From assembly GCF_002115785.1 (NCBI RefSeq), contig NZ_JFJY01000001.1:124001-188000 (forward strand): 64,000 nucleotides of DNA. The letters run 5' to 3'. Origin of the DNA: Thalassospira sp. MCCC 1A03138. GTDB lineage: Bacteria > Pseudomonadota > Alphaproteobacteria > Rhodospirillales > Thalassospiraceae. The position numbers were made by a program, and so were the translations under genes. Below are positions 3,936 to 26,062 of this stretch, piece by piece (the first letter of the stretch is position 1; each line of letters opens with the position of its first letter). Below the pieces are notes generated by a model, which had not been told where the DNA came from, made no database searches, and was given only the letters and a program-made list of their open reading frames with translations.

Positions 3936-5090
3936 ATGCTTCCCCGCCTTTGTCTGCTGATTTCCGGTCTTTTGCTGATGGCATCCTGTGCGGTGCCCCC
4001 AGATTCCCCGCGCTTTGAACCTTCCACGGGTCTTCCACCCTTTGAGCAGGACAGTTTTGCGGACTATGTGCGCGAAAACCGCGCGTGGATTTCCAAACGC
4101 CGCGCCTTCATCAGCGACGACCACGATCTTGAAGTCGATATGAATGCGCCCTTTGAAATGCGCCCGAAAACCACACCAAGGCGCGGCATTCTGTTTGTGC
4201 ACGGGCTTGGTTCCAGCCCGTGGTATTTCATTGATATCGCAAATGCCATGGCAAAGGATGGATGGATTGTCCGGTCAATCCTTTTGCCCGGCCACGGGAC
4301 GAAATCCGCCGACCTGATGCTACCGGATCTGGAGGATTGGGAGAAAACGGTTGCCCATCATGCAAAGCTGCTCAAAAGCGAGGTTGATGAAGTCTGGCTG
4401 GGCGGGTTTTCAACCGGTGGAAATCTGATAACCAGCTATGCCACGCATGATCCCGACGTAAACGGTCTTCTGCTGTTTTCGCCCGGATTTTATCCGTCAA
4501 ACGGGTATCTGTTTCTCACGCCGGTAATTTCATATCTATGGGACTGGGTTGATATCGATACCGAAGATAATATTCCCAATTACCAATCCCTGCCGTCGCA
4601 CGGGGCCAGCCTGTATTATCAAACCGTCGGCAGGGTACAGGACGATCTGACCCGCGCGGATTTTAACCGCCCGGTGCTGATCACGATGAGCCAGCATGAC
4701 AGCGTCCTCGATCCCACTGCCACACTTGAAGCCTTCCAAAGCCGCTTCACCAATCCCCGGTCGCGTTTTGTCTGGTACGGCGAAACACCGCCAAACCTTG
4801 ACGCCCCCCGTGTGACCGTGCTTTCCAGTAATCTGCTTGATGACCGCATAAGCACCTTTTCCCACATGAACGTGCTGTTTGCGCCAGATAACCCCTATTA
4901 TGGCAGGCGTGGCAGTCACATCATTTTTGAAAACGGCCAGGAAGACATTCCCCTGCCAGAGGATTCAGAAACATTGTGGTTCGGGGCATGGGGCCAGATA
5001 ACGCCGGGCAAATATCACGCCCGCCTGACATGGAACCCCTATTTCAACAACCTGCTTGCCGATATCCGCACGGTTACCAGCCAGCCATGA
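3936..5090 (+). CDS. Alpha/beta-hydrolase lipoprotein
   Basis: A 384-residue predicted lipoprotein esterase/lipase-like hydrolase. From the ATG at 3936 the signal peptide is short with lipobox LMASC. The hydrolase domain has the HGLGSSPW oxyanion-side motif, the nucleophile elbow GGFSTGG (Ser159), a later HDSVLDP that can supply the acid, and FSHMNVL that can supply the His. An in-frame GTG at 3891 has a well-spaced GGAGGGAG and would add 15 residues; I prefer the ATG because it gives a normal lipoprotein leader, though its GGAGGG is only 3 nt away. Substrate unknown. Monocistronic by position. Confidence 0.72.
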   Translation: MLPRLCLLISGLLLMASCAVPPDSPRFEPSTGLPPFEQDSFADYVRENRAWISKRRAFISDDHDLEVDMNAPFEMRPKTTPRRGILFVHGLGSSPWYFIDIANAMAKDGWIVRSILLPGHGTKSADLMLPDLEDWEKTVAHHAKLLKSEVDEVWLGGFSTGGNLITSYATHDPDVNGLLLFSPGFYPSNGYLFLTPVISYLWDWVDIDTEDNIPNYQSLPSHGASLYYQTVGRVQDDLTRADFNRPVLITMSQHDSVLDPTATLEAFQSRFTNPRSRFVWYGETPPNLDAPRVTVLSSNLLDDRISTFSHMNVLFAPDNPYYGRRGSHIIFENGQEDIPLPEDSETLWFGAWGQITPGKYHARLTWNPYFNNLLADIRTVTSQP

Positions 5091-5215
5091 TCCTTGTCCT
5101 TGTCGCCATGCCCAGCCCTCATGCGCCGGCATGGCGATGACATCGTCACAGCGTTGATCCAGTATAGATCCCACCTAAGCATTTTCATTATTGCCTCATA
5201 TCTCAAAACCCGATA

Positions 5216-5239
5216 AATGTTATGTTATAACATAACATT
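5216..5239. promoter_or_regulatory. Zur-type operator, perfect 24-bp palindrome
   Basis: Half site AATGTTATGTTA is followed directly by its exact reverse complement, centred between 5227 and 5228 and ending 14 bp before the start codon at 5254. It matches the GTTATNNNATAAC style of proteobacterial Zur boxes, and the downstream gene is a zinc-chaperone GTPase, the usual Zur target. Site type is inferred from pattern plus context. Confidence 0.82.
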
Positions 5240-5253
5240 CAAAAGGAACCGCT

Positions 5254-6480
5254 ATGAAACGCCTTCCTGTTACGGTTCTGTCCGGGTTTCTTGGTGCGGG
5301 CAAAACCACCCTGCTTAATCATGTGCTGAACAATCGTGCCGGACTGAAAGTCGCCGTAATCGTCAATGATATGAGCGAGGTCAATATCGACGCCGACCTG
5401 ATCCGTGATGGCGGGGCAGCACTTTCGGCCATGGATGAAAAGCTGGTCGAAATGACCAATGGCTGCATCTGCTGCACGCTACGTGACGATCTTTTGATCG
5501 AGGTCCGCCGTCTGGCCGAAGAGGGCCGGTTTGACTATCTGCTGATCGAATCAACCGGCATATCCGAACCGCTACCAGTCGCCGCGACATTCGATTTTCG
5601 CGATGAAACCGGCCAGTCTCTTGGCGATATTGCCCGACTTGACACCATGGTGACGGTTGTTGATGCTGCGCGCATGATTGCCGATTACAGCAGCACCGAT
5701 TTCCTTAATGACCGGGGCGAAAGCCTTGGCGACGATGATGACCGCAGCATCGTCGATCTTCTGGTCGATCAGATCGAATTTGCCGATGTGATTGTGCTGA
5801 ACAAACTTGACCTGATTGGTGCAGACGAACGCAAAATCGTGCTTGGCATCATTCGCGCGCTCAATGCCGATGCCAAAATCATCGAAACGGATCATGGCCA
5901 GGTTGATCCGCGTGACATCCTGAATACCGGCCTGTTTGATTTCGACCGTGCACAGGATCACCCGCTTTGGGCCAAGGAACTATATGGCTTTGCTGACCAT
6001 CTGCCCGAAACCGAAGAGTACGGCATCAAAAGCTTTACCTTCCGCACCCCCTTGCCGTTTCACCCCAAACGATTTTACGATTTCATCCATTCCGAATGGC
6101 CGGGCATCGTGCGCGCCAAGGGGCATTTCTGGATTGCCACCCGCCCGAACTGGGTTGGCGAAATCAGTCAGGCCGGGGCTGCGGTAAAGCACGAGGCCCT
6201 TGGCACATGGTGGTGCGCCGTACCGCGTGATCGCTGGCCCGACAACAATGACTGGCGCGATAAAGTTTTATCAAACTGGGATCCGACCTTTGGCGACCGT
6301 CAGCAGGAAATCGTCTTTATCGGCCTTGCCGATCAGATGAACGAAGCCGCCCTGCGCGCACGTCTTGCAGACTGCCTGATAGACGAGGACGAGGCGATTA
6401 ATGCCGGAAAATTCGAACCCGCCCGCTATAAATCCCTGCCCGATCCCTTCCCGGTTTGGGGCCGCAAAGCCGGAGCATAA
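5254..6480 (+). CDS. CobW/COG0523 GTPase, zinc metallochaperone (ZigA/YciC type)
   Basis: A 408-residue G3E-family GTPase of the COG0523 group, thought to deliver zinc to client enzymes under zinc limitation. Walker [10 protein letters not shown] is at residues 10-18, the metal-binding CxCC motif at C71-I-C73-C74, [12 protein letters not shown] gives switch/Walker B features, and NKLD is at 183-186. The C-terminal CobW_C domain starts near residue 260 with [23 protein letters not shown] precedes the ATG. The perfect Zur-type palindrome in the leader argues for repression when zinc is plentiful and for a zinc rather than cobalt role. No other zinc-uptake gene is adjacent. It ends just before a terminator shared with the convergent chemoreceptor. 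Confidence 0.9.
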
Positions 6481-22263: not shown

Positions 22264-22641
22264 CTAGTTGGCAGAACAAGGGCTCCCTGCCCCGCAAGGA
22301 TTATATGCCGCACACGGATTTTCTGCTGCGCACGGGTTAAACGCCGCACACGGGTTGGCACCGCACGGCGCTGCGGCACATGGATTTGCTGCGCAAGGAT
22401 TATAACCCGCACAGGGATTCGCAGCACATGGGTTATAGCCCGCACAAGGGTTCGCCGAACAGGGGTTCGATCCGCACGGATTACCCGCACACGGATTACA
22501 CCCGACCGCCGGATTGTTGGCCGGGTTCGATATTGCCGGTGGATTGGCGGGCGCGCTGGTGTGATGATAATGATCAAACGCCACCGCACCGCTGGCCGCG
22601 AGGAACACCGCGCCAAACAGGATTGTATTTTTCTCGCTCAT
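22264..22641 (-). CDS. Cys-rich NPC-repeat protein coupled to sulfur transporter
   Basis: A 125-residue protein with an N-terminal hydrophobic segment (about residues 7-22, anchor or signal), the His-containing DHYHHTS, a short Pro-rich linker, then about 78 residues that are almost entirely short Asn-Pro-Cys units (NPCA, GYNPCAA, AENPCA). I count 15 cysteines, all in this region and mostly in NPC context spaced 4-6 residues apart. I recognise no named family. Its ATG overlaps the TGA of the YeeE-like transporter gene (ATGA), so the two are translationally coupled; a tandem rhodanese gene is upstream. A periplasmic or membrane-tethered carrier of persulfide or metal is an inference from context only. 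Confidence 0.75.
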   Translation of the reverse strand: MSEKNTILFGAVFLAASGAVAFDHYHHTSAPANPPAISNPANNPAVGCNPCAGNPCGSNPCSANPCAGYNPCAANPCAGYNPCAANPCAAAPCGANPCAAFNPCAAENPCAAYNPCGAGSPCSAN

Positions 22642-23846
22642 GACTTTTTAAATCCGTCCATGCCAAATACTGGGCGCAGCGCAATACCGATCCAGCTACC
22701 GGCAAAGGCCATCACAAACCAGAGCCAACCATGCACGCTGCCCGAGGCGATGCCGCTAAACAACGCCCCGATATTGCAGCCAAACGCCAGCCGCGCGCCA
22801 TAGCCCATCAAAATCCCACCAACTGCCGCCGCCAGAAGCGACGCAAACGGCACCTTCACTTTGGGCGCGAATTTGCCCGCAAGGCTTGCGGCCAATGCCG
22901 CCCCGATCACGATGCCGAAATTCATCACCGACGTATTATCCGCCAGCACCGAATTTGAAAGCGCCTTGGCCGGACCGGCCCAGTTCCAGAATTCCCAGGT
23001 TTCAACCGGCATGCCGATACCTTGGGCGATCTTCGCCCCCCAAAGCCCGAACCCGAACGTGATCGACCACGGATGCCCCGCACTCAGAAGCGTTGCAACA
23101 TTAAGCCCGGCCAGAAGGATACCCGTCCCGACCAACGGCCACGGACCATGCAGCAACCGGGCAAAGCCCGCACGCGGTGCCACCGGTGCGGTTTCAATCG
23201 AACCATGGGCGCGTTTTTCAACCCAGATCGTGATCAACGCCACCAAAGCCAGACCGGCAAAGGTCACGCCCAACCCGCCCCAGATGCCAAATTCGGTTCC
23301 GAGGCTCATGGGCGGCATGGAAGGCAGTTCAAGCCACATCGGCAAATGTGCGGTGCCGATCACAGCGCCCACGATAAAGAACACAAGCGTCAGCAACATG
23401 CGCGCACTGCCGCCGCCAACCGTAAACAGCGTCCCCGATCCGCATCCGCCGCCAAGCTGCATGCCAAGGCCGAACATGAACGCGCCGACCAAAACCGAAA
23501 CACCAACCGGTGCCACCGCGCCGACAATCGGAGTGCCAAGTGGTGCGCCGATGGCAAGCAAGGGAATAAACGCCGCCGCGGCAATGCCGATCATCAAAAG
23601 CTGGGCCCGCATCGCGCGGCCGCGCTTTTCGACCGAAAACCGCCGCCAGCCGCCGGTAAAACCGAATGACGCATGATAAAGGGCAATGCCCAACAACCCG
23701 CCAAGGCCATAAAGCACGGCCTGATGGATATCGACGGCCTGCGCAATCAGCACCGCGACAATCACAAACAGGATCGCCGTGACGGCTGCGGGCCCTTTGT
23801 CAAAACTAAAGCCCGAAGTACGGACATTAAGGGTCGTTTCAGACAT
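22638..23846 (-). CDS. YeeE/YedE (TsuA-like) sulfur-compound transporter
   Basis: A 402-residue polytopic inner-membrane protein with roughly ten or more helices. It carries the two cysteine motifs of the family, LGGGCGSGT in the first half and FGCNIGALFSGIASGS in the second, which in the thiosulfate transporter TsuA line the conduction path. The early segment HASFGFTGGWR has Phe where some TsuA proteins have another Cys. Substrate is therefore probably thiosulfate or a related sulfur species. It lies between a periplasmic tandem rhodanese gene (106 bp upstream, with an intercistronic stem-loop) and the NPC-repeat protein gene, which it overlaps by 4 bp. Confidence 0.88.
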   Translation of the reverse strand: MSETTLNVRTSGFSFDKGPAAVTAILFVIVAVLIAQAVDIHQAVLYGLGGLLGIALYHASFGFTGGWRRFSVEKRGRAMRAQLLMIGIAAAAFIPLLAIGAPLGTPIVGAVAPVGVSVLVGAFMFGLGMQLGGGCGSGTLFTVGGGSARMLLTLVFFIVGAVIGTAHLPMWLELPSMPPMSLGTEFGIWGGLGVTFAGLALVALITIWVEKRAHGSIETAPVAPRAGFARLLHGPWPLVGTGILLAGLNVATLLSAGHPWSITFGFGLWGAKIAQGIGMPVETWEFWNWAGPAKALSNSVLADNTSVMNFGIVIGAALAASLAGKFAPKVKVPFASLLAAAVGGILMGYGARLAFGCNIGALFSGIASGSVHGWLWFVMAFAGSWIGIALRPVFGMDGFKKS

Positions 23847-23884
23847 GGTGGTGACGCTCTATCTGACTGGAAACCTGATAACGA

Positions 23885-23909
23885 ACGGAACCGGGCAAAC
23901 CGGTTCCGT
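23885..23909. repeat. Intercistronic stem-loop, rhodanese / transporter
   Basis: ACGGAACCGG and CCGGTTCCGT, perfect 10-bp arms with a 5-nt loop, in the 106-bp gap inside the sulfur operon. No T-run follows on the minus strand, so partial termination, processing or mRNA protection is more likely than full termination. Confidence 0.55.
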
Positions 23910-23952
23910 CAAAACATCGTGCATTATAGGGGTGTTACGCCGTATTTCCGAA

Positions 23953-24876
23953 TTATTCCGGAACAACCACGTCGCGCGACGGATCAGCCGCCCATTCGGT
24001 CATGGAGCCGTCATACATCCGGGTGTTTTTGTTGCCCATCACTTCCGAAAGGCCAAACCACGCAACCGATGCCCAATGGCCGGTATTGCAATAGGTGATT
24101 TCATCACCGTCTTTCGACACACCGGCATTTTCGACAAGGCCGCTGATCACATCGGATGCAACAAACTGGCCTTTCTGATCATCATAAAACGCCGACTGTT
24201 CGATATTGACCGCACCGGGGATTGCACCGGCACGCGCCACGACGGGGCTGGTCTGTTCACCGCGGAACTGTGCCGACGGACGCGCATCAACCAGCGCGAC
24301 GCCATTTTCACGCGCCTTGGCAACATCATCGGCCGTCGCCAGAAGCTCCGGGCGGAAATTGGCATTGAATGCCACAGCCTGCGGGGCGACCGCGTCGGTT
24401 GAAACCGGCTTGCCGGCTGCTTCCCAGGCACGCTGCCCGCCATCAAGAATGGTCACCGCATCATGGCCCAGCACCTTAAAGGTCCAGTAAACACGGGTCG
24501 CCGAACCAAAATCCGAGCTGTTCTGACCGGCCGGCACGACAACAACCTGTTTGTCATTATCAATGCCAAGGCTGCCGATCCGGGCCGAAATCACATCAAC
24601 CGGCGGCAACTGGCCGACAACATCACCCACCTTGGCACGCCAGCCGAACTTGCCATAGGGCGCAAAAACCGCACCGGGAACATGCCCGGCATCATAGGGG
24701 CTGCCTTCCTTGTTCAGCGACCGGATATCGACAACCACCAAAGACGGGTTATCAAGATTATCCGAAAGCCACGCGGCATCAACCAGCGGCTTTTCGGTCA
24801 GGCGCTCGGCCTGAGCGGCAGAACCCGCAAAGACAATCGCCACTGCCGCAACGGCAGAAAGAATAAGAGAACGCAT
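23953..24876 (-). CDS. Periplasmic tandem-rhodanese sulfurtransferase
   Basis: A 307-residue exported protein (signal peptide ending near AAQA, residue 22) with two rhodanese domains. The N-terminal domain (about 28-155) keeps structural motifs (VVDIRS, YDAGHVPGA) but has VVPAGQNSSDFG where an active loop would be, so it is probably inactive. The C-terminal domain (about 165-300) has DARPSAQFRGE and the active loop YCNTGHWAS with Cys263. It resembles thiosulfate/3-mercaptopyruvate sulfurtransferases. In the periplasm it could form persulfide from thiosulfate for the adjacent transporter and Cys-rich protein. First gene of the operon, with its own promoter at 24917-24946. Confidence 0.88.
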   Translation of the reverse strand: MRSLILSAVAAVAIVFAGSAAQAERLTEKPLVDAAWLSDNLDNPSLVVVDIRSLNKEGSPYDAGHVPGAVFAPYGKFGWRAKVGDVVGQLPPVDVISARIGSLGIDNDKQVVVVPAGQNSSDFGSATRVYWTFKVLGHDAVTILDGGQRAWEAAGKPVSTDAVAPQAVAFNANFRPELLATADDVAKARENGVALVDARPSAQFRGEQTSPVVARAGAIPGAVNIEQSAFYDDQKGQFVASDVISGLVENAGVSKDGDEITYCNTGHWASVAWFGLSEVMGNKNTRMYDGSMTEWAADPSRDVVVPE

Positions 24877-25022: not shown

Positions 25023-25748
25023 CTAGGGCCGCAACCCATTAAGATACCGCGCATATTCGCGCGCAAACGCGCCATGGGTTTCGCTGTTGCGCAAGGCAGG
25101 CGGGCGGGTCAGGAAGCCATGCAGGGCAGCGATGATGAATTCTGCCACCGAAGACGGTTCGATATCGGTGCGGATGGTTTTATTGAACTGTCCATGGCCC
25201 AGATGCAGCGCCAGACCGCGCCGCCAGTATCGGTAAACTCCATCAATCCGCTTGCGCAGATTTTCATCAAGTTCCGCCGCCCCCGACGCCAGCCGTGCCA
25301 GCGGACAACCGCCTTCAAGCAGTTTCGGCGCATCCTTGGTACCAAGGCAATCCACCTGCCCCATCATCACCGGCAGGATATCATCCGCCCCGTCAAGCGG
25401 CCGCAGCCAAACATCATCAATATATTGCGGCAGGCATTCCTCGATCACGGCATGGGCAAGTTTGGCCTTGCCGGGGAAATGATGATAAAGCGCGCCCTTG
25501 GTCGTGCCGGTCCGTTCCAGGATCTGATTGATCGATGCCCCGGCAAACCCGGCCATGCGGATTTCATAAAACGCCGCATCAAGGATCAGCTTGCGGGTTG
25601 CCTGCGGATTGCGGGGCTGTCGGGTCGTCGCCAGCGCATTTTGCGCATGGTCGGCAATGGCATTTTCAATCGTGCCCTCATCGACCGGATCATCCGGATG
25701 GGAGATCCGGGCCAGTGCGGCAGTAATGCTAAAGGGCGGTTTGCTCAT
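25023..25748 (-). CDS. TetR family transcriptional regulator
   Basis: A 241-residue regulator. Unusually, about 45 hydrophilic residues precede the DNA-binding domain, which reads ATRKLILDAAFYEIRMAGF then GASINQILERTGTTKGALYHHFPGK. The remainder is a helical ligand domain with LEGGCPLARLA. The open frame runs to 25853, but ATG 25748 is preferred; a strong ribosome site is not evident. It is on the same strand as and 146 bp upstream of the sulfur operon, which has its own promoter, so its target may be that operon, its own gene, or something elsewhere. Confidence 0.85.
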   Translation of the reverse strand: MSKPPFSITAALARISHPDDPVDEGTIENAIADHAQNALATTRQPRNPQATRKLILDAAFYEIRMAGFAGASINQILERTGTTKGALYHHFPGKAKLAHAVIEECLPQYIDDVWLRPLDGADDILPVMMGQVDCLGTKDAPKLLEGGCPLARLASGAAELDENLRKRIDGVYRYWRRGLALHLGHGQFNKTIRTDIEPSSVAEFIIAALHGFLTRPPALRNSETHGAFAREYARYLNGLRP

Positions 25749-26062
25749 GATTTTTATATCTTGTGCCATGTTCGATAAGGCTGTCCAAGGTTCCCCTGTT
25801 TTTGCCCCAAGGTCAATATGAGAGCACATCGAACCCAACGTGACCTTGCGCACAGTATCCCCGCGCGTGCGATGATCCAGCCCCTTGCAATTACATGTAA
25901 ACCAGTCTCTATTACGGGATTGCGGGCCGGTGATACGGCCCCCATATCCGGCCAGAAATAAAACCGGAAACGTTCAGAACCACGCCCGGAACCACGCCCA
26001 ACGCCACCCTGACACGATTATGGTGGCATGCGATCACAGGATCGCATTCGATCGGAAAGCAG
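25749..26062. other. Divergent intergenic region, TetR / nadK
   Basis: A 314-bp gap without a gene. It contains CAAGGTCA (25808-25815) and TGACCTTG (25841-25848) as separated inverted arms, the palindrome TTACATGTAA (25891-25900), a 12-bp tandem repeat of GAACCACGCCC near 25976-25999, and the inverted repeat at 26028-26047. Confidence 0.5.
26028..26047. promoter_or_regulatory. Inverted repeat in the nadK leader
   Basis: ATGCGATC-ACAG-GATCGCAT, perfect 8-bp arms with a 4-nt loop, 16 bp before the nadK start and just upstream of its GGAAAG ribosome site. Could be an operator or an mRNA hairpin limiting translation. Confidence 0.5.

Follow-up and report, generated by a model that had tools for sequence, protein, structure and literature searches.

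A membrane-anchored protein with a cysteine-rich tail as a candidate outer partner of a YeeE-family channel in Thalassospira and distantly related bacteria

The window analysed here is a stretch of 64,000 nucleotides from Thalassospira sp. MCCC 1A03138 (contig NZ_JFJY01000001.1, positions 124,001 to 188,000; numbered from 1 in the following). Three of its genes, all on the minus strand and running from 24876 to 22264, form one operon in Thalassospira and encode, in this order, an exported rhodanese (P0003), a YeeE-family channel (P0002) and a small protein with Asn-Pro-Cys (NPC) units (P0001). Our subject is this small protein and its association with the other two. The features of the operon are as follows.

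23953..24876, minus strand: P0003, exported tandem rhodanese of 307 residues, first gene of the operon (PF00581 in two stretches; signal peptide assigned by eye)
24088-24090, minus strand: codon of Cys263 of P0003, within CNTGHWA, the single Cys of this protein
22638..23846, minus strand: P0002, YeeE/YedE-family channel of 402 residues (PF04143)
23661-23663, minus strand: codon of Gly62 of P0002
23442-23444, minus strand: codon of C135 of P0002
22776-22778, minus strand: codon of C357 of P0002
22638..22641, minus strand: ATGA overlap of the YeeE stop (TGA) and the P0001 start (ATG)
22264..22641, minus strand: P0001, membrane-anchored Pro-Cys (PC) repeat protein of the NPC type, 125 residues with 15 Cys
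22576..22626, minus strand: N-terminal hydrophobic helix of P0001 by hydropathy, residues about 6-22, followed by Asp-His at 23-24
22267..22500, minus strand: Cys tail of P0001, residues 48-125, with NPC, APC and SPC units, predicted to be periplasmic

An earlier note on this DNA had described a tandem rhodanese with one live site, a YeeE-like transporter with both core cysteines and a 125-residue protein with 15 Cys whose ATG overlaps the transporter stop. We found the same: P0003 has C263 as its single Cys, C135 and C357 of P0002 align with the core positions C91 and C293, and the coordinates of P0001 as well as the ATGA overlap were confirmed. The overlap likely leads to translational coupling of YeeE and P0001, and ATGA stands at the start of the third gene in all 23 Thalassospira-type and Martelella loci in which this start was located.

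P0001 yielded no Pfam or NCBIfam match at E up to 1. The sole match to a solved structure was P1 nuclease (E 0.51), which we took as noise. Each of 28 genomes of the same genus gave a match that begins with residue 1 of the protein. Comparison of 25 genes from the genus revealed a nearly fixed N-terminus, while length (125-233 residues) and Cys content (14-31) vary. Their tails contain 465 Asn-Pro units, of which 454 continue with Cys and 11 with a different residue; in the repeats, all four Pro codons and both Cys codons are in use. We rejected a chance repeat or frame artefact in view of the conserved N-terminus, Cys codons and position of the start at the YeeE stop; by these sequence criteria P0001 is a real protein under selection. 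In an alignment of 29 chosen members of the family defined below, Lys and Arg around the helix are more frequent on the N-terminal side in 21 and equally frequent on both sides in 8, with no member having fewer there. The predicted orientation is hence N-in/C-out with a periplasmic tail. The Asp after the helix and one Cys column of the tail are invariant in all 29. In the repeat tails, 222 of 533 intervals between cysteines measure 5 residues and another 222 measure 6.

The channel P0002 passes the PF04143 Sulf_transp model (E 8.6e-74, 249.3 bits, cut-off 27). It has exactly two cysteines, C135 and C357, whose partners in the alignment belong to the solved Spirochaeta TsuA/YeeE. Each of the two is kept in 99 of 100 aligned rows, the odd row being either cut (L078) or broken (L059); a further locus (L091) yielded no alignment row. 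In the solved YeeE-YeeD complex, as described in PMC11073785, the third conserved TsuA cysteine, C22, is found at the YeeD interface beside the active Cys of YeeD. The corresponding residue of P0002 is Gly62, and the 100 rows show Gly 94 times, Ser 5 times and a gap once; L158 has a Cys three columns before this position. With no Cys equivalent to C22, the known cytoplasmic hand-over to YeeD cannot run in the same way here. A YeeD/TusA partner gene is not adjacent to P0002, a statement that covers the locus and not the rest of the genome. Compared to TsuA/YeeE with YeeD (TsuB) from E. coli and Spirochaeta thermophila, P0002 thus shares the Sulf_transp family and both essential cysteines, but differs by the missing C22, the missing YeeD neighbour and an operon with an exported rhodanese and a Cys-tail protein. 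The term 'TsuA-type' used in the earlier note is too narrow, since C22 is absent and P0002 stays far below the NCBIfam TsuA cut-offs (67.4 of 400 bits for the equivalog and 48.3 of 645 bits). It also remains below the model NF033796 for the YedE/FdhT selenium membrane protein (125.4 of 350 bits). P0002 is the one match to this YeeE in the source genome of 4.56 Mb. The first gene product, P0003, is a tandem rhodanese with predicted sulfurtransferase activity: of its two PF00581 stretches, the second holds the catalytic Cys, and C263 is kept in 56 of 56 aligned rows (P0003 included). Among Thalassospira contigs, rhodanese identity amounts to 76-92%.

But is the association of the three genes more than a habit of one genus? 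Searches for YeeE covered 387 alphaproteobacterial genomes (43 matches at E 1e-60) and 370 from the gammaproteobacterial class (26 matches at E 1e-50); those for the rhodanese covered 397 genomes across the phylum (19 matches, 14 regions read). A third gene was called when its start lies between -30 and +160 of the YeeE stop and its product has 45-270 residues, one helix, an Asp after it and Cys in the tail, a rule by which Cys-less forms could be missed. P0001 has all traits of the YeeE-linked Cys-tail family defined in this way (position behind YeeE, helix, Asp and tail Cys). Where a rhodanese lies directly 5' of YeeE, the third gene is present in 9 of 9 alphaproteobacterial loci (8 by rule, L098 by separate reading) and in 8 of 8 gammaproteobacterial loci. 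Of the 14 rhodanese-led regions, 6 have a YeeE next to the rhodanese and 8 do not; the third gene was found in all of these 6. After deduplication and addition of two Martelella genomes, all 21 genomes outside Thalassospira with a rhodanese-YeeE pair have the third gene behind it, which supports the association of the Cys-rich protein with channel and rhodanese made in the earlier note. Among alphaproteobacterial YeeE loci without an adjacent rhodanese, the rule found the third gene in 0 of 32; one of these (L059) nevertheless has it, following a broken YeeE. L078, which is cut upstream, carries it too. Two further loci need care: the lack of an adjacent rhodanese in L016 was judged from distance alone, and L013 is cut before the third gene. 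In Sinorhizobium meliloti 1021 and Ciceribacter thiooxidans, the third gene is located directly behind YeeE; in the former, YeeE lies at NC_003078.1:1089210-1090370 on pSymB, and the cassette is followed by a gene of the domain family DUF6969 (PF22308). In L059 (genome G323), in-frame stops break YeeE, yet the two genes that follow, for the Cys-tail protein and DUF6969, stay open. YeeE homologues with 52-56% identity on Azospirillum and Caballeronia plasmids (L163, L161) have no third gene in their lists of open reading frames (ORFs).

The distribution also follows the phylogeny of the channel. A tree of 77 of the 100 YeeE rows (omitting the broken L059, the cut L078, the duplicates L138 and L128 and 19 Thalassospira-type rows), rooted at midpoint only, places the channels with a third gene on one side of a branch with support 97/97, and 36 of the 38 channels there carry it. 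The third-gene label requires 3 state changes on this tree compared to a shuffled mean of 25.9, with 0 of 500 shuffles as low, although part of the clustering comes from near-copies such as six Thalassospira rows. By rule, two channels of the branch are without a third gene: L143, for which no candidate was found, and L090, in which an NPC-repeat frame precedes YeeE instead. In this other arrangement (L090:4145, genome G138), the frame lies just 5' of YeeE (4396-5586), on the same strand. A hidden Markov model of the small family (A2), run on the 387 alphaproteobacterial genomes with at most 17 candidates scored per genome, gave 8 matches, each directly behind YeeE; 6 are training rows and 2 near relatives, and known short forms were missed, so that the model tells little on absence elsewhere.

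The tails themselves are diverse. NPC, SPC or APC repeats occur in the alphaproteobacteria, CAPCGAPC in many gammaproteobacteria and PCGL or PCSL repeats in others. Two 1.2-Mb genomes (L075, L076) encode a tail with one PCG, and four genomes from three families (L131, L132, L156, L157) have a single tail Cys in GSGxxxxGGxC within a Gly/Ser-rich end. The shortest and longest forms appear homologous by position, helix and Asp rather than by sequence scores.

Its recurrence as neighbour of the channel in distantly related bacteria makes the Cys-tail protein a probable functional component for the delivery of sulfur to the channel. We tentatively favour, at a little less than even confidence, that proteins of the P0001 type serve as tethered thiol carriers between rhodanese and channel in a unit for import of sulfane sulfur. 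The exported rhodanese would load the outer sulfur of thiosulfate (or of another sulfane donor) onto Cys263 as persulfide. The small protein, anchored in the inner membrane beside the channel by its single helix and exposing the Cys tail to the periplasm, would take over the persulfide sulfur and pass it to the outer channel cysteine C357, from which it would proceed by C135 into the cytoplasm. In Thalassospira, growth of the tail to many PC units might provide more capacity or reach. What the sequences show is gene order and overlap, the trio across classes, its place on one YeeE branch, the retention of tail cysteines and the absence of C22, together with a predicted N-in/C-out helix; persulfidation of the tail, physical contact, transfer direction and substrate are inferred. 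The strongest argument for the tethered carrier comes from the four genomes with a single-Cys tail: one Cys on a Gly/Ser-rich end could pass on sulfur and would hardly store metal, and such tails hence fit a carrier arm better than a metal store. Published accounts contain related steps: periplasmic PspE makes sulfane sulfur that ends in the cytoplasm (as reported in PMC10215317), the two-Cys channel YedE1E2 imports zero-valent sulfur (as reported in PMC10812762) and transfer from a SoxY cysteine along those of SoxT was called conceivable in PMC11582611.

Several points weigh against a tethered carrier. The absence of C22 is common to YeeE rows without the third gene and is hence a trait of a larger group rather than of the partner branch. 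Eight of the 18 gammaproteobacterial YeeE loci without an adjacent rhodanese still carry the third gene. Direct transfer from Cys to Cys within the channel was doubted in PMC11582611 given a spacing of about 7 A, and according to PMC10812762 the single-chain YedE3 (from Cupriavidus and E. coli) combined with a dioxygenase did not make polysulfide oxidation faster. Tail thiols would be exposed to oxidation in the periplasm, and the evidence for the carrier consists of genes and sequences. Most important, NPC-type repeats also occur in exported proteins far from YeeE: they lie near 33 of 80 surveyed DUF6969 loci, and 3 of the 80 have YeeE in range. That most PC-repeat/DUF6969 loci are without YeeE in range speaks most strongly against a role in sulfur import only. 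The reading of the earlier note is partly supported: the Cys-tail gene accompanies channel and rhodanese, but the finding named there as refuting, NPC-repeat genes lying mostly away from sulfur genes, holds in part, given these other surroundings and the fusions to P460-like domains.

We consider it rather unlikely, though no other alternative fares better, that a soft metal, with Cu(I) as the first candidate, is bound by the PC tails, which would act either as a buffer near thiol enzymes or as a carrier to redox proteins, so that the sulfur genes would be protected or supplied with metal. Look-alike PC-repeat proteins adjoin genes for P460-like, FGE-like and weakly cupredoxin-like proteins and c-type cytochromes; in the DUF6969 survey, which covered one place each in 80 of the 96 genomes with DUF6969 (some cut by contig ends), a P460-like gene was found near 24 places, an FGE-like gene near 24 and a related cytochrome c near 27. 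FGE are cuproenzymes, and a fusion of bufferin, cytochrome c and FGE is on record for copper-binding exported peptides (as reported in PMC12452194). The prevalent Cys spacing of 5 or 6 and the His next to the helix would suit a metal ligand as well. Less compatible with metal binding are the single-Cys members within the same YeeE-linked family, the lack of a match to any copper family for four proteins of the operon region and a cupredoxin match in the other context that stays below cut-off.

Unlikely to a slightly greater degree is that the PC tails are substrates of DUF6969 acting as a Cys-modifying enzyme, similar to exported peptides resembling RiPPs (ribosomally synthesised and post-translationally modified peptides), with the modified tail doing the work in free or tethered form. 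DUF6969 indeed tracks many-PC tails. It lies behind the third gene in 8 of 8 gammaproteobacterial loci with PC[GST]L-type tails (5 by Pfam, 3 by the signature EHGHFH) and behind many-PC third genes in Martelella, S. meliloti 1021, C. thiooxidans and the alphaproteobacteria G379, G242 and G323, whereas none of the 8 short-tail loci that were checked had it nearby (in most of them, the flanks covered were 1.5 kb). The domain was present in 96 of 377 alphaproteobacterial genomes sampled; at genus level, it was found in 61 of 256 genera overall and in 5 of 5 with many-PC third genes (P 7e-4, by a test chosen after the fact). As many-PC tails accompany DUF6969, there is room for a Cys-modifying or metal-loading role. 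HxH and GHxH are invariant in all 80 rows of the DUF6969 alignment, which suggests a metal site. The frequency of NPC-type repeats near DUF6969, called by a motif rule, compares to 0 of 24 control loci; the controls were 28 YeeE or rhodanese loci, not matched in taxonomy, from which 4 positives that coincide with DUF6969 places or lie no more than about 2 kb away from them (G340, G138, G199, G280) had been removed. Conversely, 47 of the 80 DUF6969 loci show no NPC repeats, and DUF6969 was not seen near the many-PC third genes of two loci checked, L056 of Thalassospira and L061, both genomes having it elsewhere. Neither a fold nor a relative of known chemistry emerged: the best sequence match to solved structures was not below E 0.39, and a model built from just two Martelella sequences reached a mean pLDDT (predicted local distance difference test) of 42, too low for use. 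CefA, a RiPP with Cys at every fifth residue (NF038108), resembles the NPCAA units in this spacing, but its model left P0001 unmatched at E up to 1 and gave the second NPC protein of the genome 14.6 bits at a cut-off of 30.

Metal binding and Cys modification by DUF6969 are the strongest rivals of the tethered carrier; FGE-like neighbours and the bufferin precedent favour both in the other context. Both are compatible with a carrier, as the channel could also be served by tails that are modified or carry metal. A wider view, in our judgement unlikely though worth stating, is that PC-repeat proteins and DUF6969 constitute an unrecognised system, in which a metal-dependent enzyme would build or load a chain of reactive cysteines on an exported scaffold. 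This scaffold would occur either free or fused to a P460-like domain, or else tethered at YeeE, where the loaded cysteines would act as an outer sulfur-delivery arm replacing the inner acceptor YeeD.

We regard it as improbable that the helix with its Asp-His is the functional part, belonging to a small subunit for assembly, gating or sensing of the channel, with the tail being secondary. The invariant Asp would fit such a subunit, and so would a Cys-less one-helix protein of 56 residues without assigned function, encoded near soxT1A of Hyphomicrobium according to PMC11582611. A secondary role of the tail is difficult to reconcile with a tail Cys in each aligned member (although Cys was part of the finding rule) and with repeats that strongly retain Cys. 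That the tail is low-complexity drift without a role of its own is scarcely credible: its length varies within one genus, but nearly all Asn-Pro units retain Cys despite synonymous codon variation, and the neighbour is conserved across classes.

The preferred reading, a thiol carrier tethered at the channel, can be set beside systems already described. SoxT1A and SoxT1B of Hyphomicrobium denitrificans, as presented in PMC11582611, are likewise YeeE-like and alphaproteobacterial, have a one-helix small protein nearby and were proposed to draw sulfane sulfur from the periplasmic carrier SoxYZ; they differ by their Sox partner proteins, three conserved Cys and the absence of Cys in the small neighbour. 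YedE1E2/PmpAB is a two-Cys channel like P0002 for which zero-valent sulfur import was reported, but consists of two four-helix proteins encoded beside persulfide dioxygenase and ArsR-type genes (as described in PMC10812762). Bufferins and other MNIO-modified peptides are exported peptides with Cys motifs beside a conserved enzyme, as here, and include one with the FGE fusion mentioned above (PMC12452194); P0001 has no bufferin precursor domain (Pfam and NCBIfam, E up to 1), and the recurring enzyme here is DUF6969. No paper describing the Cys-tail protein and none containing the word DUF6969 was found in the open-licence literature searched, and a YeeE-type import unit with an outer partner has, as far as these searches reach, not been described before.

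Sulfur import into the cytoplasm and the presentation of sulfur on the outside were called poorly understood in PMC11582611. A short protein that accompanies one YeeE branch, from 1.2-Mb genomes of SAR11-like size through rhizobia to gammaproteobacteria, represents a specific candidate for the outer donor. Since single-Cys and many-Cys forms exist, the carrier idea can be tested by point mutation, and the genetically tractable S. meliloti 1021 carries the cassette together with DUF6969. The link between PC repeats and DUF6969 also offers a first handle on this uncharacterised domain.

PC repeats, DUF6969 and YeeE co-occur in more than one arrangement. Outside the window, Thalassospira (G000, contig C28; L046:4117-6994) encodes a second exported NPC protein, which is probably related in function to P0001; its neighbours are DUF6969, a c-type cytochrome and an FGE-like protein. 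NPC-P460-like fusions with a CxxCH-type site were seen in L047:6282-7118, L048:6478-7464, L224:6129-7223 and L238:6467-7645; of the four fusions scanned, one passes the Pfam cut-off for P460 and three fall just short of it. In some genomes, a small NPC protein adjoins the fusion. Genome G280 (L224:4980-9118) has five co-directional genes for YeeE, a weakly cupredoxin-like protein, an NPC-P460 fusion, a small NPC protein and DUF6969. The FGE-like ORFs of 23 loci among L194-L241 all carry GGSWDD(K/S/R)GCG(V/I)CR in their terminal parts, which contains a CxxC, whereas classical FGE has C-x4-C.

Downstream of P0001 follows a DEAD-box-like helicase (named by eye). Promoter and terminator scans of the region gave values close to those of shuffles. 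One further feature lies upstream of the operon:

25023..25853, minus strand: TetR-family regulator, with an uncertain GTG start

All 22 Thalassospira-type loci contain a homologue of this regulator (at a distance of a few kb in L015, L018, L019 and L020), and 0 of 2 Martelella loci do. Two of its cysteines, C140 and C183, are retained throughout the 23 aligned rows. The regulator may sense reactive sulfur, and its GTG start may be too early.

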